Shown here: piece by piece, positions 15,842 to 34,797 of the stretch
Position numbering within the stretch: the first letter of the stretch is position 1
How the letters are laid out: the number at the start of each line of letters is the position of its first letter
Origin: Holdemania massiliensis AP2
GTDB taxonomy: Bacteria > Bacillota_I > Bacilli_A > Erysipelotrichales > Erysipelotrichaceae
DNA length: 34,861 bases
Assembly (NCBI RefSeq): GCF_000327285.1
Contig: NZ_HE998567.1
Coordinates: 981,737 to 1,016,597, forward strand
Reading direction: 5' to 3'
Notes under the pieces: model-generated
Told to the model about the DNA's origin: nothing
Databases searched by the model: none
The model's input: only the letters and a program-made list of their open reading frames with translations
Translations under genes and position numbers: made by a program

Positions 15842-16257
15842 TCAAGCTGATCGGCGCCTTTCTGGCTGAAATCGGATTCGGTGTGCTGTTTAATATCCAT
15901 GGAAAAAAACTGTTGGCTGCAGCGCTGACCGGAACGCTGGGCAGTTTGATTTACGAGCTGGTTCTGCTGGGACAGGCCGGGGAGATTCTCGCGATGTTTC
16001 TGGCTGCCTGTGGATTGTGTTTTGTCAGCGAAGTGCTGGCAAGATTGATGAAAACGCCGGTCACGACATTTCTGATCTGTGCGCTGATCCCGCTGGTCCC
16101 GGGCGGAGGCATGTATTATACGATGCTGGCAATCATTCAGGGCAATACGATGAGCGCGCTGGAGATTGGCATCCACACGCTCGGCTGCGCCGGCGCGCTG
16201 GCGCTGGGAATTGCGCTGACCAGTGCTTTTTTCTCACTTTCGATGAAAAAATCATGA
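15835..16257 (+). CDS. ThrE-type exporter, second half
   Basis: This 140-residue membrane protein matches the YjjB/ThrE_2 partner. It has about four to five hydrophobic segments and the family block LIPLVPGGGMYYTM. I start it at ATG 15835, which overlaps the end of the first half by 7 bases and follows GGAGG; the frame upstream is open but only shadows the first gene. The two proteins should form one transporter. A terminator follows directly. Confidence 0.9.
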   Translation: MVIKLIGAFLAEIGFGVLFNIHGKKLLAAALTGTLGSLIYELVLLGQAGEILAMFLAACGLCFVSEVLARLMKTPVTTFLICALIPLVPGGGMYYTMLAIIQGNTMSALEIGIHTLGCAGALALGIALTSAFFSLSMKKS

Positions 16258-16265
16258 AAAATGAA

Positions 16266-16293
16266 GAAAAACCTGAATTTTTTCAGGTTTTTT
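16266..16293 (+). terminator. Terminator after the ThrE-type pair
   Basis: AAACCTGAA and TTCAGGTTT form a 9-bp stem with a T-rich loop, followed by a run of T. Confidence 0.92.
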
Positions 16294-16363
16294 ATGTATA
16301 ATTATAACCATTTCGTTAGCATACTAAGGTCTGAGCTAATCTCTTAAGAAGTCTGAAAGTTTC

Positions 16364-16380
16364 TTACATTTTTCTTAACA
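16364..16380 (+). promoter_or_regulatory. 11-bp direct repeat, PhoP/PhoB-box-like
   Basis: TTACAT (16364-16369) and TTAACA (16375-16380) repeat at an 11-base period, the spacing used by OmpR-family regulators of the PhoP type (TTNACA with a 5-base gap). It lies upstream of the promoter of the GT2 gene. Confidence 0.45.
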
Positions 16381-16403
16381 CAAATATAAATTTTCATGAC
16401 TAA

Positions 16404-16421
16404 TGTGAATTTTTCTTCACA
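16404..16421. promoter_or_regulatory. Palindrome just upstream of the GT2 promoter
   Basis: TGTGAA and TTCACA form a perfect 6-bp inverted repeat around TTTTTC, ending 4 bases before the -35 box. It could be an operator for a dimeric regulator; the form recalls Crp/Fnr sites but the central gap is longer than in those. Confidence 0.45.
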
Positions 16422-16425
16422 GAGA

Positions 16426-16453
16426 TTGCATTTCTTCTTCAGCCGTTTAAAAT
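16426..16453 (+). promoter_or_regulatory. Promoter of the GT2 gene
   Basis: TTGCAT and TAAAAT are separated by 16 bases. The leader after it is about 60 bases and has no riboswitch I could identify. Confidence 0.65.
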
Positions 16454-16522
16454 AGAGTCCAGCATCAGCAACAGGCTGAGCTGCTTTTTACAGGGTGCGA
16501 ATCCGAAGAAAGGACCATGAAT

Positions 16523-17785
16523 ATGCTAGAAAGTTTAAATGCATTTAATTTTACAATTTTTATCTTATTTCTGCTTCTCTATTTATATCAGATTATCTTT
16601 GCCGGAGTCGTGTTGTTTGGCAAAAAGAAACCGACGCCGGAAGCGAAGCAGATGCACCGCTACGGCGTCATTATTGCGGCGCGCAATGAAGCAACGGTCA
16701 TCCGTGAGCTGCTTCAAAGCATCAAAGCGCAGAATTATCCGGACGGTTTGGTCACGGCTTTTGTCATCGCTGACAACTGTACCGACAACACTGCAGAACT
16801 GGCCCAGGCTGAAGGGGCTGTCGTTTACGAGCGGTTCAATCAGCTGAAAGTCGGCAAGGGCTATGCGCTGGATTATGCGTTTAAGCACATCATGAAGGAA
16901 TATCCTGAGGATTGGTTCGAGGCTTACTTTGTCTTTGATGCAGACAACCTGCTGGATCCCAACTACATTCGGGAAATGAACAAAGTGTTTGATTCCGGCT
17001 ATGAAATAATCACCAGCTACCGCAACTCCAAAAACTATGATTCCAACTGGATTTCTGCCGGTTATTCACTATGGTTTCTGCGCGAATCAAAATATCTGAA
17101 CCAGGCGCGGATGATGTGCGGCTCCAGCTGTGCGATTTCCGGTACCGGCTTCATGATTTCCAATCAGATCGTCAAAGCCAACAACGGCTGGAAGCATCAT
17201 CTGTTAACCGAGGATATCGAATTTTCTGTCGACAGTGTCCTGCATGGCTTAAAGATCGGCTACTGCGGCAGCGCCGTCCTGTACGACGAACAGCCCTGTA
17301 CATTTGAACAGTCCTGGAAACAGCGCCTGCGCTGGTCAAAGGGGTTCTATCAGGTATTTGGACGCTATGGACAATCGCTGGTCAAACGGATTGTCAAAGA
17401 ACGCGATTTCAGCAGTTATGACATGACGATGACCATTGCTCCGGCCCTGTTTGTTTCTTTGTTCAGCGTCCTGATCAATTCCCTCGCCCTGTTGTTTACG
17501 TTATGCGTACAGCGGGATCCGGAAGTTTTATCCGTTACGCTGGGCGCTATAACCGCCTCTGTAATCAACTACTATTTGATTCTGTATGCCTTCGGCGTTC
17601 TGACGACCATCACGGAATGGAACAATATCCACTGCAGTGCTGTGAAGAAGATTCTCTACACCTTCACTTTCCCGATTTTTATCTTCACCTATGTTCCGAT
17701 CGCGATTGAAGCGCTGTTTAAGAAGATCGAATGGAGTCCGATCACCCACACCATCGCCAAATCAATTCAGGAAATACGCGATTAA
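16523..17785 (+). CDS. Membrane glycosyltransferase family 2, processive type
   Basis: This 420-residue membrane enzyme belongs to the GT2 polysaccharide synthases. A membrane segment at about 10-35 precedes the catalytic domain. Key residues are the early YGVIIAARNEA, the metal-binding DAD at 139-141, TED at 229-231 and QRLRW at 267-271, the D,D,D,QxxRW layout of processive synthases, followed by three or four membrane segments. Of two close ATGs I prefer 16523, 8 bases after AAAGGA; 16517 is only 2 bases away from it. It has its own promoter and terminator and no partner genes, so a surface polysaccharide is likely but the sugar is unknown. Confidence 0.9.
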   Translation: MLESLNAFNFTIFILFLLLYLYQIIFAGVVLFGKKKPTPEAKQMHRYGVIIAARNEATVIRELLQSIKAQNYPDGLVTAFVIADNCTDNTAELAQAEGAVVYERFNQLKVGKGYALDYAFKHIMKEYPEDWFEAYFVFDADNLLDPNYIREMNKVFDSGYEIITSYRNSKNYDSNWISAGYSLWFLRESKYLNQARMMCGSSCAISGTGFMISNQIVKANNGWKHHLLTEDIEFSVDSVLHGLKIGYCGSAVLYDEQPCTFEQSWKQRLRWSKGFYQVFGRYGQSLVKRIVKERDFSSYDMTMTIAPALFVSLFSVLINSLALLFTLCVQRDPEVLSVTLGAITASVINYYLILYAFGVLTTITEWNNIHCSAVKKILYTFTFPIFIFTYVPIAIEALFKKIEWSPITHTIAKSIQEIRD

Positions 17786-17799
17786 CCGCGTATTTTTTA
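17773..17799 (+). terminator. Terminator overlapping the end of the GT2 gene
   Basis: ATACGCG and CGCGTAT form a 7-bp stem with loop ATTAAC, which contains the stop codon, followed by six T. Confidence 0.88.
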
Positions 17800-17913
17800 T
17801 AGGGACAGCTTCGTCCTTCTGCAGAAAGCAAAGCATGTCTGCGCTCTTCGATCTTCCGTTTTTAGACATTTCGTTTAGAAAGTATAGCGCAAACAAGCCG
17901 GAGTCATGGATTT

Positions 17914-17946
17914 CTTCACACAAACTTCACGGTTTTTTTCTATAAT
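17914..17946 (+). promoter_or_regulatory. Direct repeat and -10 box of the HtrA gene
   Basis: TATAAT at 17941-17946 is preceded by CTTCAC at 17914-17919 and again at 17925-17930, giving TTCACA and TTCACG at an 11-base period. There is no good -35 hexamer, so an activator binding at the repeat in its place is plausible, as with PhoP-type or CssR-type regulators. Confidence 0.6.
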
Positions 17947-17973
17947 AAGAACGGATAGAAAGAAGGAAATAAA

Positions 17974-19116
17974 ATGTTCGATCACGAATTAATGGATACG
18001 GAAACGGCAGCGGTCAAAAAAGAACTGCGGTCGATGAAGCGAACCTTCCGCATCGGACTTGCGGCTTGTGCTTTACTTTCCGGAGTTATCGGCTTTTCCG
18101 CCGGGACTCTGGCAGCCAAAAATTCAAAAGCCAGCGTCGTTGTACAAAGTGTAGAACGTCGCCAGAATGTGGAGAACGTGCCGGTGACTTCGATAAATAT
18201 TCCTTCGGTTGCGGCATTGACGCAGAACAGTGTTGTAGAAATCCGAACGGAATCCGTTTCCAACAGTTTATTTCTGCGTCAGTTCGTCACGGAAGGAGCC
18301 GGCAGCGGCGTCATTATTTCTGAAGACGGCTACATTGTTACCAACAATCACGTTATTGAAGACGCCCGCTCAATCCTTGTGGCGCTGCATGACGGGACAA
18401 CGTATGAGGCTCAGCTTGTCGCCTCAGATTCCAAAATGGACATCGGCGTCATTAAAATTGAAGCTTCCGGTCTGACGCCGGCGATTCTGGGAGATTCTGA
18501 TTCGCTGTCGGTAGGCGAACCTGTCGTCGCCGTCGGCAACCCATTGGGACAGCTGGGCGGGACTGTGACCAATGGAATCGTCAGCGCTTTGGACCGTGAG
18601 ATTATTCTGAACAATGAGCACCGGAACTTATTGCAGACCAACGCGGCGATCAATCCGGGCAACTCCGGCGGCGGCCTGTTTAATGCGGACGGAGAATTAA
18701 TCGGCATCGTCGTGGCCAAGTCATCCGGGGAAGATGTTGAGGGTCTGGGTTTCGCCATTCCGATCAATGATGCCAAACCGATTATCGAAGATCTGATCGC
18801 ACAGGGATATGTCGGCGGCCGGGTATCGTTGGGCATTACGGCGCTGGATCTGACAACCCCTCAGCTCGCCGCTCAATACGGTTTCAAGACACCGGGCGTC
18901 TATGTCCAGTCCGTCATTGAAAACTCCAGTGCTGCCAACGGCGGGCTGCAGCCAGGCGATTGCTTTGTATCTATCAACGATACGGCGATTGAAGCCATTT
19001 CCGACATTACTTCCATCCTGAATGAAAGCTCTGTCGGCGATCAGCTGATGATCACGGTGAAGCGTGACGGCAAGATCGTTGAACTTACCCTTACCCTGCA
19101 GGAAAAGAAAGGCTAA
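17974..19116 (+). CDS. HtrA/DegP-like serine protease
   Basis: This is an envelope quality-control protease of 380 residues. A single membrane segment at about 26-48 anchors it with the catalytic part outside. The trypsin-like domain has a complete triad: His 126 in TNNHVI, Asp 156 in SKMDIGVI, and Ser 231 in NPGNSGGGLF. One PDZ domain occupies about 285-375 (VYVQSVIENSSAANGGLQPGD). The start follows AAGGA at good spacing. The cytoplasmic N-terminus is short and charged. The promoter carries an 11-base direct repeat that fits control by a response regulator. It stands alone between two terminators or terminator-like hairpins. Confidence 0.95.
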   Translation: MFDHELMDTETAAVKKELRSMKRTFRIGLAACALLSGVIGFSAGTLAAKNSKASVVVQSVERRQNVENVPVTSINIPSVAALTQNSVVEIRTESVSNSLFLRQFVTEGAGSGVIISEDGYIVTNNHVIEDARSILVALHDGTTYEAQLVASDSKMDIGVIKIEASGLTPAILGDSDSLSVGEPVVAVGNPLGQLGGTVTNGIVSALDREIILNNEHRNLLQTNAAINPGNSGGGLFNADGELIGIVVAKSSGEDVEGLGFAIPINDAKPIIEDLIAQGYVGGRVSLGITALDLTTPQLAAQYGFKTPGVYVQSVIENSSAANGGLQPGDCFVSINDTAIEAISDITSILNESSVGDQLMITVKRDGKIVELTLTLQEKKG

Positions 19117-19567: not shown

Positions 19568-20629
19568 ATGGAAATCAGTAAAATTCCTTACCCTGATTTA
19601 TCGCTTCAATCCCTGCCGTATTCCCTCAATCCAGATCAGCTTCGTGAGCGTTTAATCACCCTTGACTTTCGGGAAAACGATGTATTCCGTTTTGCCCTGG
19701 GTTGTGAGGATGAAAAATCCAGAAAGATTCGATTTGCTTATTTATCAGCGCTGTTTCATATCCAGGTTGTCCGAGCAGATATAAAAAATACGGAACCAAT
19801 GAAAACCTATGAAAGGGAAAAAGGTGTGCGCTTCGATTTGCTTATCGAAGTTGAAGATGACAAAGGTCAGATTCTGCTTGTGAACATAGAAATGCAGAAT
19901 TATCAGATGGGTCGGCACTTGTCGCTGCGCTCTCAGGGATACTTGGCACGAATCGTTGCCGACCAGCTCAATGCGGACAATCTTTATGAATTTAATCCCG
20001 TAGTTCAGCTGATGATTCTCAACCGGAGTCCGCAAGTGCAGGAATGGGATGGATATCTGCATCATTATCGATACTTCAATGAAGAAAAGGGCAAACGTCT
20101 GCCGGATGAGCGATGTCAGATCCTCTGGATAGAAATGGATAAATTAGAGGAATTGGAAAGCAAACCCGTTGAAGAATGGAAAATGGAAGAAAAAATTCAC
20201 TACATGCTTCGGTTCAGTCATATCGCAGAGAAACAGAACATCATTCATGAATTAGTCGAGAAGGAGGAAATTATCAAGATGATGGAAGAAAAGAAAGTGG
20301 ATTTTTTAAGGGATACAAGTTTGGCAATTGCTCGATTGAGAGCCAAGTTTGATGAATTGGATTATGAACTGGAAATGGCAGAAAGTCGGCTTGAAGGCAA
20401 ACGCGAAGGTAAACTTGAAGGTCAACGAACATTGATTAAACTGGTTTTGGGAAAACGGATGGAACTCAGCACAGAAAATGAGAAGCAGATTGACAGTTTA
20501 GATGAACAAGCACTCTTAGAGCTGACTCAGGTCATAGATACAATCTACACATCACAGGATCTTCACCACCAAATCCAAACGATTACAAAACAGAATAGCA
20601 GAGCTGCAGAAACAATACTTTCCCGATAA
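19568..20629 (+). CDS. Rpn-family PD-(D/E)XK nuclease (putative transposase-like)
   Basis: This 353-residue protein matches the Rpn (recombination-promoting nuclease) family, PD-(D/E)XK enzymes often annotated as putative transposases. The nuclease core has RFDLLIEVEDDKG with Asp 90 and VNIEMQ with Glu 108 and Gln 110, the D-ExQ version of the active site. The C-terminal part is a long helical region with the family's EGKREGKLEGQ turn repeats near 275-285. It is complete, with AAGGAGG before the ATG. It is AT-richer than the genes around it and lies between two copies of a palindromic element, which suggests a mobile or horizontally acquired unit. Known family members nick or cut DNA and promote RecA-independent recombination; mobility here is inferred. 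Confidence 0.88.
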   Translation: MEISKIPYPDLSLQSLPYSLNPDQLRERLITLDFRENDVFRFALGCEDEKSRKIRFAYLSALFHIQVVRADIKNTEPMKTYEREKGVRFDLLIEVEDDKGQILLVNIEMQNYQMGRHLSLRSQGYLARIVADQLNADNLYEFNPVVQLMILNRSPQVQEWDGYLHHYRYFNEEKGKRLPDERCQILWIEMDKLEELESKPVEEWKMEEKIHYMLRFSHIAEKQNIIHELVEKEEIIKMMEEKKVDFLRDTSLAIARLRAKFDELDYELEMAESRLEGKREGKLEGQRTLIKLVLGKRMELSTENEKQIDSLDEQALLELTQVIDTIYTSQDLHHQIQTITKQNSRAAETILSR

Positions 20630-28524: not shown

Positions 28525-30465
28525 CTATGCAGTAAAATCCGCGGGCTCCTGCGGCAGTTCCGCAAACCGAATTTCGATCTTAAACAGATCTCCATCGGCA
28601 CTGACCTCAATCTGACCTTTCATCAGTGTTACAAACGTTTCCGCAATCGCCAGGCCCAAACCGGAACCTTCTGTCGATCGGGATACATCGCCGCGGACAA
28701 ACCGTTCGGTTAAGGATCCCGGATCAAATTTCAGTTCGTAGTTCGCAATGTTTTTGAAGCTGATGCAGATCTGTTCCTCCACCCGTTCAATCTGAATATA
28801 AACGCGGGTATTTTCCATGGAATATTTAATCGCATTGGTAATCAGGTTATCAAAGACATTATACAACCGACCGCCGTCCGCCAGAATGTAGCCAGGAGTA
28901 TCGAGGTATTGGATTTTAAACTCCAGCGTGCTGGCTTCAATTTTTTCATCCAGCTCCGCCAGCGTCTGCATCAGAAGGCCGTTAATTTCCAGCTTCCGCA
29001 AATCCATCTGCAGATTGCCGCTGGCCGCCTTGGAAATTTCAAACAGATCCTGAATCAGATTTTTTAACCGCACGCTCTTCTGCGTGATGATGCGCACGTA
29101 GTCACGGGCATATTCCGGCTGAATCTCAGCTTTGGTCAACAGATCTGAGTAGTTGATCAACGATGTGATCGGCGTTTTCAGATCATGGGAAACGTTAGTA
29201 ATCAGCTCAATTTTCAGTTTCTCACTCTTAAGCTGTTCTTCAACCTGATGACTGACGCCTTCCCGGATTTTTTCCAGATTATCACTGACTGGCTGCAGCG
29301 GACTGCCTTCGCTCAGCTCAAAGCTTTCGTTCAGTACGCCGCGGCGGATATTTTCAACCTGCTGCGCCAGCGCGGCAGAATCCTGCATGAACAACATCAT
29401 CCTGCGGATGTAGAGAAACAGCACCAAAAAGGCCGCAGCAAAGATCAGAACAAACACCAGAATTCCCATAAAGCCCAAAAACGCGGAGAACATCATCGAC
29501 CAGAGAATGAATGCGCAGATGACTTCAAAAACAACCAGAAGCAGAAATTCCGTCAGCCATTTTTTCTGATAGCCATACGGACCGCTGATTAAGCGCACCG
29601 TCTTCATTGCAGAATTAAGAATATTGTGATGAAAGGGCTTTAAGCCATAGAAATGCAGTTCATTGACCAGCACATACAAGCCCCAAAACAGCACGGTCAC
29701 CGCCAAGGGCAGCGGCAGGCTAAGCGAGAACAGCATCAATGTTAAAACTAAGCCCAGCCCCAGTTTAACCTCAATCCAAAAATTGAAAGTCAGCTGCGCC
29801 AAGCTTTCATTAAACGCCGTAATCGGCGCGCGCTTGAACACCCCGTAGGCCAGAGTGATAAAAAACAGGCACAAGGAGGAATAAAAGCAGATCTTCAGAT
29901 TGTTCATCGACTCCTGAAAGTACGTGTAGCTGTAATACATCGGCGTATTGTATGCCAGCTGATCGTCGATCACCAGCGCCAGCCGTTCAACTTTTTCCTG
30001 AGAATACAGCTTAAGCAGGCTGACAGCCATTTCCGCCGTTTCCCGCGTGATCGTCTTCTGATCAATCAGGAAATACGCTCCGCGATAGGTTATCTGCGGG
30101 GTTTCTCCCTGCTGCCATGTCAGCATCATCATGCCCTGACTGCCGTACTGCTGCAAAAACTGATCATAAGTCAGCTTCAGATCATCATCGCTGTTGAAAT
30201 AAATATCCTGCTGCTCAACGACATAATGCAGATTGTAATACAGGTCTTCCTGAACCTCTCCCGACAACGGCGGTTCATCATAAAGCAGATGTGCCAAATC
30301 CTGCAGGCTCTGCTGAATCATCTGTTTGGGATACAGCACCTGATGACCCTGGGTTGAATACAGCGTTTCCACCGTCAGCGCCGAGGTAAACAACAGCCCC
30401 GTCAACAGAACGAAAAAAAGCAGGAACGCCAGAAACCCGCTAGTTTTTCTCGATCTTGTATCCAA
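28525..30465 (-). CDS. Sensor histidine kinase with several membrane segments
   Basis: This 646-residue sensor kinase begins with a membrane segment at about 10-32, an outer domain to about 185, then at least four further membrane segments to about 365. A short linker leads to the dimerisation helix with LITNVSHDLKTPIT (His about 427), and the ATPase domain has NVFDNLITNAIKYS, FKNIANYE and STEGSGLGLAIAETF. The start codon is TTG 30465, inside the end of the regulator gene (26-base overlap), with AGGTGG 9 bases before it; the exact start is uncertain. The overlap ties it to the response regulator upstream. The signal is unknown. Confidence 0.92.
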   Translation of the reverse strand: MDTRSRKTSGFLAFLLFFVLLTGLLFTSALTVETLYSTQGHQVLYPKQMIQQSLQDLAHLLYDEPPLSGEVQEDLYYNLHYVVEQQDIYFNSDDDLKLTYDQFLQQYGSQGMMMLTWQQGETPQITYRGAYFLIDQKTITRETAEMAVSLLKLYSQEKVERLALVIDDQLAYNTPMYYSYTYFQESMNNLKICFYSSLCLFFITLAYGVFKRAPITAFNESLAQLTFNFWIEVKLGLGLVLTLMLFSLSLPLPLAVTVLFWGLYVLVNELHFYGLKPFHHNILNSAMKTVRLISGPYGYQKKWLTEFLLLVVFEVICAFILWSMMFSAFLGFMGILVFVLIFAAAFLVLFLYIRRMMLFMQDSAALAQQVENIRRGVLNESFELSEGSPLQPVSDNLEKIREGVSHQVEEQLKSEKLKIELITNVSHDLKTPITSLINYSDLLTKAEIQPEYARDYVRIITQKSVRLKNLIQDLFEISKAASGNLQMDLRKLEINGLLMQTLAELDEKIEASTLEFKIQYLDTPGYILADGGRLYNVFDNLITNAIKYSMENTRVYIQIERVEEQICISFKNIANYELKFDPGSLTERFVRGDVSRSTEGSGLGLAIAETFVTLMKGQIEVSADGDLFKIEIRFAELPQEPADFTA

Positions 30466-31135
30466 TCCCCCACACCACCTTTATATACCGCGGATTCTTC
30501 GGATCAATTTCAATCTTCTCACGAATCCGCCGAATATGGACGGCAACCGTGTTTTCACTCTGGAAACTCGTTTCATTCCATACCCGCTCATAGATTTCAT
30601 CAATTGAAAACACGCGGTTCAGATTGGTTAAAAACAATTCCAGAATCCGATATTCGATCGGTGTGACCTTGACCGGTTCGCCTTCCAGCGTCACCGTTTT
30701 CGCCTCCAAATCAATACTTAAACCGCCGACTTCGATCACCGTTCCGGTTTCCGCCGTCGCCCCCAGCTGCATGTAGCGGCGCAGCTGCGATTTAACCCGG
30801 GCAATCATTTCCAAAGGATTAAACGGTTTGGTAATATAATCATCAGCACCGATGTTCAGACCCAGCACCTTATCCATGTCCTCCGATTTGGCAGACAGGA
30901 TAATAATCGGAATGTTGGATGTTTCACGAATGTGCATAATCGCCTGGATTCCATCCATCTTCGGCATCATCACATCCATCAGAATGCAGTGAATTTTCTG
31001 CTGATTCAGAATTTCCAGCGCTTCCAGTCCATTATACGCTTTAAAAATTTCATAGCCTTCGCTCTTAAGATAAATTTCGATCGCGTCGGCGATCTCATGA
31101 TCATCATCCACGACTAAGATTTTATAGTTTTCCAT
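30440..31135 (-). CDS. OmpR/PhoB-family response regulator
   Basis: This 231-residue DNA-binding response regulator has a receiver with Asp cluster at 10-12, phospho-acceptor Asp 54 in LMDVMMP and Lys 103 in ITKPFNP. The winged-helix domain covers about 130-231 (VTPIEYRILELFLTN, SIDEIYERVW, NTVAVHIRRIREKIE, VVWGIGYKIE). It is the first gene of the pair with the kinase. OmpR-family regulators bind direct repeats at about 11-base period; one such repeat (TTACAG and TTACAA at 31207-31223) lies about 72 bases upstream of its start, so self-regulation is possible. Confidence 0.95.
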   Translation of the reverse strand: MENYKILVVDDDHEIADAIEIYLKSEGYEIFKAYNGLEALEILNQQKIHCILMDVMMPKMDGIQAIMHIRETSNIPIIILSAKSEDMDKVLGLNIGADDYITKPFNPLEMIARVKSQLRRYMQLGATAETGTVIEVGGLSIDLEAKTVTLEGEPVKVTPIEYRILELFLTNLNRVFSIDEIYERVWNETSFQSENTVAVHIRRIREKIEIDPKNPRYIKVVWGIGYKIEKN

Positions 31136-31206
31136 ATTCCCAATCCTTTCCGCTCTTCTATTTTATAACCTTACCAAACAATTCTTAAGCGTTTCCATTC
31201 TTTTCC

Positions 31207-31223
31207 TTACAGTTTTCTTACAA
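31207..31223. promoter_or_regulatory. 11-bp direct repeat upstream of the response regulator
   Basis: On the + strand TTACAG (31207-31212) and TTACAA (31218-31223) repeat at an 11-base period with gap TTTTC. The right box overlaps the stop codon of the upstream metallopeptidase gene. It resembles the repeats before the HtrA and GT2 genes. Confidence 0.4.
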
Positions 31224-31904
31224 ATCCCCATTTAATAAGGCTTTCCACGTATCGTAGTCCGGCATGTGGTGACGAATGACCGTGTAAAAGCGTTGGGAAT
31301 GATTCGGTACGATCAGATGCGCATATTCATGCCATAACACTGAATTCACGCACGCTAAAGGGTAATGAATCAAATTCAGATTCAGCGTGATTTTGGACTT
31401 GGCCGGAATACAGCTGCCCCAGCGGCTTGTCATCCGCCGGTAATGGATCGTCGGAGCAGCCAGATGATAGTCCGCAATCACCTGATCCCATTTTGGCCGC
31501 AGTCGTTCGACTTCGGCTTCCAGGCTGCTCTTGGCAAATTGATCAAAGGCGCGCTGCTTTGTTTCCGGACAGGCATCGGCGCCATAAAGAATTAAGCGAT
31601 CCGGCTGCAGCCGGGTTTTTCCTTTGCCAATCACCCATTGCAGCTCGACCGGCTTGCCGTATACGGCGATCTTTCCGCTGGCCGGTTGGGACTGCTGCGC
31701 CTGACGGCGGGCCAGCTTTTCCGTATGGGCCTCAATCCAACTGCGCTTCGCTTCCACAAACCGCTGAATTTCTGCATTCGAACAGGCATACGGCGCGCTG
31801 ATAAGCAATTCATCCGGACTTTTTAAGCGCAGAATCAGATTGCGGATCGGTTTGCGCTGAACCGATATCCGCAGAATTTTCCCATTGATATTTAAGCTTT
31901 CCAT
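31218..31904 (-). CDS. YgjP-type metallopeptidase (M48-like)
   Basis: This 228-residue protein matches the YgjP/DUF45 metallopeptidase family. The zinc motif HEYAH is at 192-196 with a third ligand His in NHSQRF (about 202); the preceding RMTSRWGSC and KITLNLNLIHYP are the family signature. No membrane segment. The start is ATG 31904, 7 bases after AAAGGAG; the frame is open another 117 bases upstream, but TGT TATAAT at 31935-31927 is the likely extended -10 box, which rules out that extension. Function is poorly known in the family. Confidence 0.92.
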   Translation of the reverse strand: MESLNINGKILRISVQRKPIRNLILRLKSPDELLISAPYACSNAEIQRFVEAKRSWIEAHTEKLARRQAQQSQPASGKIAVYGKPVELQWVIGKGKTRLQPDRLILYGADACPETKQRAFDQFAKSSLEAEVERLRPKWDQVIADYHLAAPTIHYRRMTSRWGSCIPAKSKITLNLNLIHYPLACVNSVLWHEYAHLIVPNHSQRFYTVIRHHMPDYDTWKALLNGDL

Positions 31905-31926
31905 CGCCGCACTCCTTTTGGGATTC

Positions 31927-31935
31927 ATTATAACA
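31927..31935 (-). promoter_or_regulatory. Extended -10 promoter of the metallopeptidase gene
   Basis: TGT TATAAT on the - strand, 22 bases before the start codon. Confidence 0.75.
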
Positions 31936-31950
31936 TAAAACCGAAGACTA

Positions 31951-31980
31951 GAAAACGGCGCCAAGGACAGCGCCGTTTCT
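31951..31980 (-). terminator. Terminator after the DUF1700/DUF4097 gene
   Basis: AAACGGCGC and GCGCCGTTT form a 9-bp stem; on the - strand a short TTTTC follows. Confidence 0.75.
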
Positions 31981-32013
31981 TTTCCTGATTTCTTTAAGTT
32001 CTTTGCGGTTAAT

Positions 32014-33039
32014 TTAATCACTAATTTTCAAATCGCCGCTGATTGTCTTGACCGCGATTTGGGCATGACCATCCCCAGCGCTCAGCTGACGGCCGCGGCG
32101 TTCCAGCGGCAGATGGATATGCGGCCGCAAGTCACCGGAAATCGTCGTGAAGCTGCAAACAAAACCTGTGGTATGCGGCAGGGTTAAATGAATATCGCCG
32201 CTGATCGTATCCAGTTTCAGACTTTCAGCCGCTTCAATCGCAAGATCAAGATCACCGCTTTTGCTTTCCGCCAGCACCGCCTGGAAGCAGCCCCGAATAT
32301 CTAAATCGCCTGAGGTTGTACGGAATTTGCCCAGTTTACCATGGGCCTGGGTCAAATCAAGGTCACCGCTGATCGAAGTGGCTTCAATCAATTCACCGCG
32401 GACTGCCGCATGAATATCGCCGGAAGCCGACGTAAACTGCACAGCCTCGGCATCAAGTGCACGTATATCGATATCTCCGCTTTGCACCGACGCCGCAAAC
32501 TTGCCGCAGTGAAGGATTTCAGGCACTCGGATATCTCCGCTCATACTGCTGATCTTGACATCCAGACTGGCTGAAGGCAGCGTAACATCCAATCGCAGAT
32601 GTTCTCCCGCTCCCGCCCGCAGCCAGCTGTTCTGCAGGCGAATCACGCGGATGGCATAGACGTCATTCTCCTGAACTGTTTCAAGCCGGTAATTATGCAC
32701 CCGCAGCGGATTGCGGCTATCGTAGAAATCCACTAAAACATCATTTCCAGTTCCCTGCTTCAATGTGATATCCGCACTTTCTGCTTCAATGCTGACCATC
32801 GACAAGGCATCAATCTGGGTTTGGGATTCCGCCTGAGCCTGACGATGCGGACGGGTATTCAGTTCGCTGATCAGTTCTGCCGGATCGCCCAGCTCCTCGC
32901 TGATTTCCTCTTCGCTGCGGCCTTCGCTCAGCCCCTGTTCAAAGTGATCGGTAAAATCCTGAAGAATTTCCTTTGCGGTTTGTTCGTCAACGGCCTCCAG
33001 ATCCATTTGCAGCCGTTCCATGTATTCTTTTCTGTTCAT
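32014..33039 (-). CDS. DUF1700 plus DUF4097 protein (beta-helix-like SGD repeats)
   Basis: This 341-residue protein begins with a DUF1700 (HAAS) region at about 1-60 (MNRKEYMERLQMDLEAVDE, EEISEELGDPAELISEL). The rest is a DUF4097-type repeat domain in which SGDI or SGDL returns nine times, at about 18-25 residue intervals, giving a right-handed beta-solenoid in known relatives. There is no signal peptide or membrane segment, although many relatives have one between the two parts. Its start overlaps the PadR gene stop as ATGA, so they form one operon. Such pairs are linked to cell-envelope stress in Firmicutes; the precise role is unknown. Confidence 0.9.
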   Translation of the reverse strand: MNRKEYMERLQMDLEAVDEQTAKEILQDFTDHFEQGLSEGRSEEEISEELGDPAELISELNTRPHRQAQAESQTQIDALSMVSIEAESADITLKQGTGNDVLVDFYDSRNPLRVHNYRLETVQENDVYAIRVIRLQNSWLRAGAGEHLRLDVTLPSASLDVKISSMSGDIRVPEILHCGKFAASVQSGDIDIRALDAEAVQFTSASGDIHAAVRGELIEATSISGDLDLTQAHGKLGKFRTTSGDLDIRGCFQAVLAESKSGDLDLAIEAAESLKLDTISGDIHLTLPHTTGFVCSFTTISGDLRPHIHLPLERRGRQLSAGDGHAQIAVKTISGDLKISD

Positions 33040-33353
33040 GCTTCTCCTTTCCGGATGAGTTCATCCACTAATCGCACAAATTCCTGCCATTCGCCTGTCA
33101 GCTGTTGTTCATGGGACCGGCCTTTTTCCGTCAGCCGATAGTATTTGCGGGCCGGACCTTCCGCAGATTCCACCAGATAGGTATCCACGTCGCCGTCATC
33201 TTTCAGCCGTTTTAAGATCAGATACAGGGTTCCCGCCGCAACCGTCATTTTCTGTGAGATCGCTTCGGTCAGCTCATAGCCGTATTTCTCTCCCTGCGCC
33301 AACAAGGACAGCACGCACATTTCCAGTACGCCTTTCTTAAACTGAGCGTTCAT
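33036..33353 (-). CDS. PadR-family transcriptional regulator
   Basis: This 105-residue winged-helix regulator shows the PadR pattern: KKGVLEMCVLSLLAQGEKYGYEL, the recognition region AAGTLYLILKRLKDDG, and RKYYRLTEKGR in the wing. It lacks the long C-terminal helix of larger PadR proteins beyond the short one at its end. It is the first gene of an operon with the DUF1700/DUF4097 protein and probably represses its own promoter, as is usual for the family. Confidence 0.93.
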   Translation of the reverse strand: MNAQFKKGVLEMCVLSLLAQGEKYGYELTEAISQKMTVAAGTLYLILKRLKDDGDVDTYLVESAEGPARKYYRLTEKGRSHEQQLTGEWQEFVRLVDELIRKGEA

Positions 33354-33459: not shown

Positions 33460-33480
33460 GTATAGATGGAGGATAAACAA

Positions 33481-34197
33481 ATGAAGAAAAAAATTGCACT
33501 CACCATCACCCTCGGATTCACCTTGCTTGGATTGATCATCAGCGGTTTCTATTTTTTCCAGCATGAACTGAACCGGCGTTTAGACCTGGTTTCTGTTCCC
33601 GTCAGTACATCCAGCTTACCCCCGCGTCATACAATCACGGCCCAGGATCTGACCTGGATTGATATCCCTTCTGCCTATCTGCAGGCTGATCTGCTTTTGA
33701 GCGAAGCGGAGCTTGTCGGTTGTTGGACACGCTTGGAAAGCACCATTCCGCGCGGTTCCTTCTTTTATGAAGAAATGGTTGAAAGACCTGAGGAAATGAC
33801 TGATTTCAGTATCACGACCTTGAAGGAAGGTCAAGCTGTTTTTCCTTTGGCAGTTTCAATTGAAGAGATCAGCGGACAATTAATGCAGCCTGGACAGCAG
33901 GTTGATTTGTATGTATACGGCCAATGGCCGGATGGTCAGGAAATGATGGATTGTCTGCTTCGTGGCGTACGCATTCTGGAACTGCAGAACCGTTATGGTG
34001 AACGGATTGATCAGGCAGAGGACACCCTGCCTTCTACTGTGCTGCTGGCCGTTGATCAAGCCTATCTGTCTCCTTTATCCATTGCGGAGAAGAAAGGACG
34101 AATCGAACTGTATCTAACCGCTGACAGTTATAATCAGGCAGAATGTATCCTGGCAGAGGAATCCGAGGTTCTCCGCTGGCTGAAAGAGGAACGATAG
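33481..34197 (+). CDS. CpaB-like SAF-domain protein
   Basis: This 238-residue protein resembles CpaB/RcpC proteins of Flp (Tad) pilus systems. One membrane segment at about 3-25 anchors it; a SAF domain follows at about 35-95 (VSTSSLPPRHTITAQDLTWIDIP), then a beta-rich part with IEEISGQLMQPGQQVDLYVYG, the RcpC-type block. The start is ATG 33481, 8 bases after GGAGG; the ATG at 33466 overlaps that site. No other Tad genes lie within the window, and non-coding repeats follow directly. A stand-alone envelope protein is also possible. Confidence 0.8.
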   Translation: MKKKIALTITLGFTLLGLIISGFYFFQHELNRRLDLVSVPVSTSSLPPRHTITAQDLTWIDIPSAYLQADLLLSEAELVGCWTRLESTIPRGSFFYEEMVERPEEMTDFSITTLKEGQAVFPLAVSIEEISGQLMQPGQQVDLYVYGQWPDGQEMMDCLLRGVRILELQNRYGERIDQAEDTLPSTVLLAVDQAYLSPLSIAEKKGRIELYLTADSYNQAECILAEESEVLRWLKEER

Positions 34198-34255
34198 TCT
34201 TTGTTACTATTTAAAGACAGAAAAGAAGCCACGAACACGCTATGAGTTAAAAGTC

Positions 34256-34797
34256 AGAAGACTTCGTTTGTCAAGCGATTGGGAGCGAATAGGCACTTTT
34301 CAGGAGCGAATAGATAGGTTAGAAGAAATGAAAGAGATAAGCACTGAATGTTAGATAACTTCGTTTGTCAAGCAATTGGGAACGAATAGGCACTTTTCAG
34401 GAGCGAATAGCCAAGTTAGAAGAAATGAAAGAGATAAGTACTGAATGTCAGAAAGCTTCGTTTGTCAAGCAATTGGGAACGAATAGGTACTTTTCGGGAG
34501 CGAATAGACAAGTTAAAAGAAATGATAGAGATAAGCACTGAATGTCAGAAAGCTTCATTTGTCAAGCAGTTGGGAGCGAATAGGCACTTTCGGGAGCGAA
34601 TAGACAAGTTAGAAGAAATGATAGAGATAAGCACTGAATGTCAGAAAGCTTCATTTGTCAAGCAGTTGGGAACGAATAGGCACTTTTCAGGAGCGAATAG
34701 ACAAGTTAGAAGAAATGATAGAGATAAGCACTGAATGTCAGAAAGCTTCGTTTGTCAAGCGATTGGGAACGAATAGGCACTTTTCGGGAGCGAATGG
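34256..34797. repeat. Array of 97-bp tandem repeats, non-coding
   Basis: The word CTTCRTTTGTCAAGC returns at 34262, 34359, 34456, 34553, 34649 and 34746, i.e. at 97, 97, 97, 96 and 97 bases: five full units and a partial sixth. Each unit holds two copies of GGARCGAATAG 21 bases apart, and CTTC-TTGTC near its start can pair with GACAA-GAAG near its middle. Since 97 is not a multiple of 3, no frame stays open through it as a protein repeat. The flanks 34198-34255 and 34798-34861 hold no supported gene. Confidence 0.93.

Follow-up and report, generated by a model that had tools for sequence, protein, structure and literature searches.

Three direct repeats of 11-bp period in Holdemania massiliensis are probable operators of two different OmpR-family circuits

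A stretch of 34,861 nucleotides from Holdemania massiliensis AP2 (hereafter the window; G000:C1:981737-1016597, in a genome, G000, of 3.81 Mb) carries three direct repeats, the two words of each pair lying 11 bp apart: TTACAT/TTAACA (16364-16380) upstream of a glycosyltransferase gene, TTCACA/TTCACG (17915-17931) upstream of an htrA gene and TTACAG/TTACAA (31207-31223) upstream of a response regulator gene. Are these repeats read by a single regulator, and do the genes behind them form a single regulon? An earlier note had taken all three for TTNACA repeats of a PhoP-type regulator encoded in the window, and had proposed a small envelope regulon. From sequence, conservation, the association of repeat words with regulator types and gene order, we arrive at another reading, namely that the three repeats are probably the operators of two different OmpR-family circuits, one for htrA and one for the glycosyltransferase and the response regulator.

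The htrA gene (17974..19116, plus strand) encodes a HtrA/Do family serine protease with Trypsin_2 and PDZ domains, which scores 287 bits against the degP_htrA_DO profile, under the cut-off of 416. Its candidate operator (17915..17931, plus strand), in full TTCACA-CAAAC-TTCACG, lies nine bases upstream of a TATAAT -10 hexamer (17941..17946, plus strand) that is identical across four members of the genus. A PD-(D/E)XK transposase-family gene (19568-20629) lies 3' of htrA. The membrane glycosyltransferase, assigned to the GT2 family by domain search, is encoded at 16517..17785 (plus strand), and its candidate operator (16363..16380, minus strand) reads CTTACA-TTTTT-CTTAAC in full, that is, CTTACA-N5-CTTAAC(A) on the plus strand and GTTAAG-N5-TGTAAG on the minus strand. 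A sigma-70 promoter scan of positions 16250-18000 returned no promoter-like match, the htrA -10 included. Holdemania filiformis DSM 12042 carries the same GT2 and HtrA genes on contig NZ_GG657556.1.

The two-component pair lies on the minus strand. The OmpR-family response regulator (RR, 30440..31135; Response_reg and Trans_reg_C domains) is placed in a VanR-like superclade by a tree, and the sensor histidine kinase (HK, 28525..30465; HisKA and HATPase_c domains) has a VanS-like catalytic half, the VanS profile being its best match, under the cut-off. The candidate RR operator (31206..31222, minus strand) reads CTTACA-GTTTT-CTTACA on the plus strand, hence TGTAAG-AAAAC-TGTAAG on the gene strand, and a -10-like TAAAAT stands at 31160..31165 (minus strand) within a promoter-like match of 9/12, a score reached three times in the region against 2.9 expected. 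A YgjP-like gene (31218-32021) lies directly upstream on the same strand; together with genes for a PadR-like regulator and a HAAS-DUF4097 protein (LiaG-like, with a score below the cut-off), it makes up a group at 31218-33353 that possibly forms one long envelope-stress operon with the RR gene.

The three 11-bp repeats are present in the sequence, but they consist of more than one word or motif. The positions and the period given in the earlier note are correct, and its view of the repeats as direct repeats of the OmpR-family type is supported by the conservation and the family-wide enrichment described below; the idea of one shared word is not, as TTNACA fits well at the htrA site only. A search of the window for TTNACA-N5-TTNACA with up to two mismatches gave 32 matches against 28.2 expected, a number equalled or exceeded in 31 of 100 shuffles, and thus no enrichment. 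The htrA site alone fitted well (one mismatch), the RR site was matched just with two mismatches and a shift of one base, and the GT2 site (16364-16380) was unmatched at two mismatches or fewer, so that TTNACA half-sites some 5 bp apart were not found at the three promoters as the note had it. Six minus-strand matches at 34269-34769 stem from a tandem repeat (34253-34795; 5.6 copies of a 97-bp unit, 93% matches) that adjoins an RcpC/CpaB-like gene (33466-34197). The genome-wide motif search that the note had proposed as a check also gave no enrichment: CTTNACNNNNNCTTNAC had nine matches against 19 for the reversed control, and the loose word alone is therefore not enriched.

The GT2 and RR repeats have CTTACA-N-TTTTCTTA in common, letter for letter, the orientation of the RR repeat relative to its own gene being opposite to that of the GT2 repeat. 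With at most one mismatch, TKTAAG-N5-TKTAAG occurs three times in the window against 0.35 expected (none of 100 shuffles reaches three), two of the three matches being the GT2 and RR sites; because the pattern was picked after these two sites had been seen, the count illustrates the likeness and does not prove it. Genome-wide, CTTAMANNNNNCTTAMM was not enriched over its control, with 8 matches versus 12 in the own genome and 22 versus 31 in four genomes; the GT2 and RR sites of this search recur in two relatives, G002 and G003. A literature search over titles and the openings of abstracts returned nothing dealing with these repeat sites.

Conservation within Holdemania bears on each site to a different degree. 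The htrA site is kept in G001, G002 and G003; in G001, whose HtrA is 75% identical, both half-sites and the TATAAT are kept, with GGCTG in place of CAAAC as the spacer. The RR site is kept in the same three genomes, again with a different spacer in G001, where it reads TGTAAG-N5-TTTAAGG and is joined by a CTTAAGA element before the -10, and the sequence GTTATA(A/C)AA at the -10 of this promoter is kept in four genomes. Part of this site is also coding sequence, since the stop codon of the YgjP-like gene upstream falls within its first half, so that it is mainly the second half-site that counts as free evidence. The GT2 site is kept as CTTACATTTTTCTTAAA in G002 and G003, within a conserved block flanked by more variable stretches, but these two are near-identical relatives and hence little informative; a close GT2 homologue was not found in G001, where the best match reached 30% over part.

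Which regulator would read the GT2 and RR repeats? In the tree, the window RR, the regulators encoded in operons with GT2 genes (operon RRs) and a paralogue, RR3, form one superclade, apart from a second type, RR2 (100/100). The window RR occupies a branch of its own, and no operon RR is singled out by the tree as its nearest. Of 35 superclade loci, 31 were counted, with L102, L103, L107 and L108 omitted as near-copies, and the rows were scanned by coordinates for gene starts. CTTAA-N5-CTTAA at 9/10 or better was found upstream of 18 of these 31 loci against 0.40 expected from mononucleotide shuffles, an expectation that, as in all our association counts, overstates independence because the rows are related; three control words were found at 2, 3 and 2 of the 31 loci, and TTCACA repeats at none.

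The neighbourhoods of GT2 genes point in the same direction. Among 80 GT2 loci (the best 80 of at least 575), four have a VanR-like RR-HK pair, or an HK at a contig end, directly upstream of GT2 (L195, L200, L204 and L206), and L216 has an RR-HK pair 700 bases 5' of the first of two GT2 genes. Within the family of Holdemania, G018 and G007 have an HK directly 5' of GT2, in G018 also with an RR. These operon counts are lower bounds, because several loci have short flanks; GT2 homologues without a two-component system are nevertheless the rule. In the operon promoters, CTTAMA-N5-CTTAMA is present at 12/12 in L195 and L216 and 11/12 in L206 (p 0.00 each), 10/12 in L200 (p 0.12) and 9/12 in G018 (p 0.17), all against mononucleotide shuffles. 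Stand-alone GT2 genes, 75 of the 80 loci (L195, L200, L204 and L206 being taken out as operons, L166 lacking upstream DNA and L216 being counted as stand-alone), show the repeat at 11/12 or better in four cases, one of them H. filiformis, against 0.30 expected.

It is plausible that a small regulon unites GT2 with the neighbouring kinase pair, although this half of our reading is weaker than the one on htrA, and the pairing of a VanS-like kinase with a GT2 suggests an envelope signal sensed by the kinase. To this extent the envelope regulon of the earlier note is retained, a common regulator for GT2 and the kinase pair being plausible, whereas htrA goes with the RR2 type.

The alternative that survives best, although we consider it unlikely, agrees that htrA is under RR2 and holds that some other regulator, such as RR3, binds at GT2 and RR, or that the RR site alone is real. 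RR3 and the window RR fall together in the VanR-like superclade, and some RR3-type relatives (L281, L283, L291 and L293) carry CTTTAG-type repeats upstream instead of CTTAA. Moreover, the GT2-linked kinase of G018 scores slightly better against the RR3-partner kinase (222.5 bits) than against the window kinase (211.1 bits); the G018 and window kinases are of nearly equal length (644 and 645 aa compared, respectively), but only their catalytic halves align, with 44% identity across 241 residues. Against this alternative, the GT2 and RR repeats share their word exactly, and the RR3 promoter of G000 has CTTCAT-N5-CTTCAT, not CTTACA. This CTTCAT repeat, upstream of the RR3 paralogue (L106, G000:C1:1070579-1071274 and upstream), stands at the same distance to the -10, and its conservation in G001 to G003 is partial.

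For htrA, the assignment of a regulator is clearer. TTCACA-N5-TTCACA at 10/12 or better was found upstream of the best HtrA match in 12 of 19 genomes of the family, against 0.47 expected from dinucleotide shuffles. Not among the 19 are G002 and G003, which are near-copies, G010 and G011, for which there were matches but no loci, and nine loci (L030-L038) from the other family of the order; none of these nine reached 10/10 for a 10-letter TTNACA score (mononucleotide shuffles, mixed region lengths). A TATAAT or TATACT follows the repeat after nine bases in G001, G005, G013 and G015, and in four genomes the second htrA gene of Holdemania has repeats of the TTCAC type that score between 9/12 and 11/12.

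Across genomes, the htrA repeat goes together with the presence of an RR2-type gene. It is present in 11 of 13 genomes with RR2 and in two of six without (p=0.046), and, at 11/12 or better, in 8 of 13 versus none of six (p=0.017), the threshold for RR2 presence (1e-60) having been set in a gap of the match list after the list had been seen; this count reaches beyond the 331 upstream bases covered by the count of 12 in 19, the htrA repeat of G018 lying further upstream. Exceptions occur on both sides: G008 and G012 have an RR2-type gene and an htrA without the TTCACA repeat, and in G004 and G017 the repeat reaches 10/12 without an RR2-type gene. In G013, htrA, the RR2-type gene and a kinase gene are consecutive.

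The RR2-type genes carry the same box at their own promoters. Holdemania has two such systems, RR2 (G000:C1:725755) and its paralogue RR2b (C1:308343). The RR2 promoter, first met in G002 through a pattern search that included the -10, has TTCACN-N5-TTCACW in four Holdemania genomes, and the RR2b promoter has TTCACGCAGAATTCACA, likewise in four. More widely, the TTCACA repeat at 10/12 or better lies upstream of RR2-type genes at 21 of 30 loci (one per genome, from the 30 highest-scoring among 55 matching genomes) against 0.0 expected from mononucleotide shuffles. The control word RMATTC was itself enriched at these loci (10 of 30 at 10/12, 2.4 expected), but it is not a clean control because it overlaps the AATTCAC context of the motif. 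Of the nine loci without the repeat, the RR2-type gene of G013 probably lacks a promoter of its own inside the htrA-RR2-HK run.

The pattern TTCA-N7-TTCA-N11-TANANT has five matches in the own genome against none for the reversed control, and 22 against three in four genomes. The five precede htrA, RR2, RR2b, the RR3 paralogue and an arylsulfotransferase-like gene; because the pattern was derived from the htrA, RR2, RR2b and RR3 sites, which match by construction, the sole news is the scarcity of other matches. The fifth site (L091, G000:C6:51090-51121) reads TTCACA-N5-TTCATA-N9-TATACT and lies 5' of the arylsulfotransferase-like gene, a possible extra RR2 target. Because TTCACA marks htrA and the RR2 types and is found at none of the 31 window-RR superclade loci, the most likely place for htrA is in a secretion-stress circuit of the CssRS kind whose genes lie elsewhere in the genome.

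The same data weigh heavily against a single regulator, the window RR, that would bind all three repeats and control GT2, HtrA and itself, as the earlier note had suggested. The three repeats do share an 11-bp period within one 15-kb stretch, and OmpR-family regulators can tolerate divergent half-sites. Yet TTCACA is found at 0 of 31 loci of the window-RR superclade versus 21 of 30 of the RR2 types; G020 has the htrA repeat at 12/12, with RR2 present and no window-RR-type match at 1e-70; and a CTTAAA repeat is not enriched upstream of htrA (two of 19 genomes, 1.21 expected). We thus regard this possibility as very improbable. Least credible of all is that the repeats are chance products or by-products of AT-rich promoter DNA, read by no regulator: the absence of enrichment for TTNACA in the window and for CTTNACNNNNNCTTNAC and CTTAMANNNNNCTTAMM in the genome would agree with it, but the half-sites of htrA and RR are kept in G001 while their spacers change, the enrichment upstream of htrA and RR2 goes far beyond shuffles, and for htrA the G001 conservation and the 12 of 19 family genomes largely refute it.

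If the three repeats serve two circuits, the following scheme can be proposed, in which we infer binding, the direction of regulation and the signals. A misfolded exported protein would activate RR2, by analogy with CssRS of Bacillus subtilis, and an RR2-type regulator (RR2 and/or RR2b, encoded elsewhere) would bind TTCACA-N5-TTCACR, 9 bp before the htrA -10. Phosphorylated RR2 would sit as a tandem dimer on the htrA -35 position or immediately 5' of it, a place for which the scan gave no good -35/-10 pair, and would activate transcription by recruiting polymerase both to htrA and to the operon of RR2 itself. The VanR-like RR encoded in the window would bind the CTTACA/TGTAAG-type repeats of GT2 and RR, further upstream at both promoters, and would control itself and the glycosyltransferase.

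Beyond Holdemania, a broader reading seems to us conceivable, though the odds lean slightly against it: an undescribed VanRS-like system, lying directly before its surface-polysaccharide-type GT2 gene in scattered Clostridia and relatives, may control that GT2; the Holdemania gene, some 14 kb off, may have kept a copy of the operator; and paralogous OmpR regulators of this order may each keep their own 11-bp word (TTCACA, CTTAA/CTTACA or CTTTAG). In that case the repeat word of each paralogue would let its targets be mapped from sequence without further data. The class of mechanism is already well known; the interest of the locus lies in the assignment of candidate operators to regulators by comparison alone in a little-studied gut lineage, and in the correction of a tempting one-regulon reading. 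It also provides a testable secretion-stress circuit, with two htrA genes and two RR2-type systems, and proposes a candidate system by which a surface glycosyltransferase may be controlled.

Four known systems invite comparison. PhoP of B. subtilis binds TTAACA repeats, and it resembles the regulators considered here in using direct-repeat operators of the OmpR-family kind; however, the GT2 and RR words are not TTNACA and the window RR is VanR-like, so that the PhoP label given in the earlier note is misplaced. A PhoP-kind array does occur elsewhere in the genome (L087, G000:C2:226561-226593), where three TTAACA at 11-bp spacing, which we take to be a Pho-type box, lie 5' of a gene for a Na/Pi cotransporter that includes a PhoU domain; the genome may therefore have a Pho-type circuit of its own.

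VanR/VanS is the closest system by profile, as VanR models are the nearest in NCBIfam to the window RR, but the scores fall below their cut-offs (vanR_ACDEGLN, the best match, 280.2 bits versus 350; vanR_FM, 266.9 versus 460). In enterococci, VanR boxes are described, in excerpts of the source, as direct repeats (T/C)CGTANGAAA(T/A)T upstream of the -35 (PMC4405338). The sequence TTGTAAGAAAAC at 31212-31223 matches the VanR operator YCGTANGAAAWT with two mismatches, which is within chance, a scan of the window at up to two mismatches giving 26 matches against 35.8 expected and no enrichment.

CiaRH offers a likeness in the operator. In Streptococcus pneumoniae, htrA is a strong target of CiaRH and the operator is NTTAAG-N5-TTTAAG with an 11-bp period, according to excerpts of PMC3091779. 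The RR site, TGTAAG-N5-TGTAAG (TGTAAG-N5-TTTAAG in G001), resembles this consensus as given there; here, however, the CiaR-like word is found at GT2 and RR instead of htrA, and by profile the regulator itself is of the VanR kind.

The htrA half of the locus resembles CssRS. In B. subtilis, the canonical box for CssR reads TTTTCACA, and CssR activates htrA, htrB and cssRS, as stated in excerpts of PMC6749698; a box of this type, TCTTCACA, is present at the htrA promoter as the first half of the repeat (17913-17920) at 7/8. The neighbourhoods differ. No htrA was found in the 1.5-kb flanks of 30 RR2-like loci from six Bacillaceae-type genomes, nor in wider stretches around three such loci, and Holdemania has two RR2-type systems. 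RR2 as a CssR orthologue thus finds no support in the Bacillaceae-type neighbourhoods, and no CssR profile is among the best 25 NCBIfam matches listed for each RR2 protein. In Psychrobacillus, TTCACA-N5-TACACA-N9-TATACT (L349:6353-6412) stands about 60 bp ahead of the frame of an RR2-like gene (L315, 45% identical) that has no htrA nearby (about 6 kb covered), and the TTCACA word may therefore be ancient in regulators of this type. With CssRS, as far as the excerpts describe it, the Holdemania system shares the TTCACA core, htrA genes as targets and an autoregulated two-component operon, the last suggested by the presence of the same box at the RR2 and RR2b promoters in four genomes. The predicted htrA/RR2 circuit would therefore be better described as one that works like CssRS than as CssRS itself.
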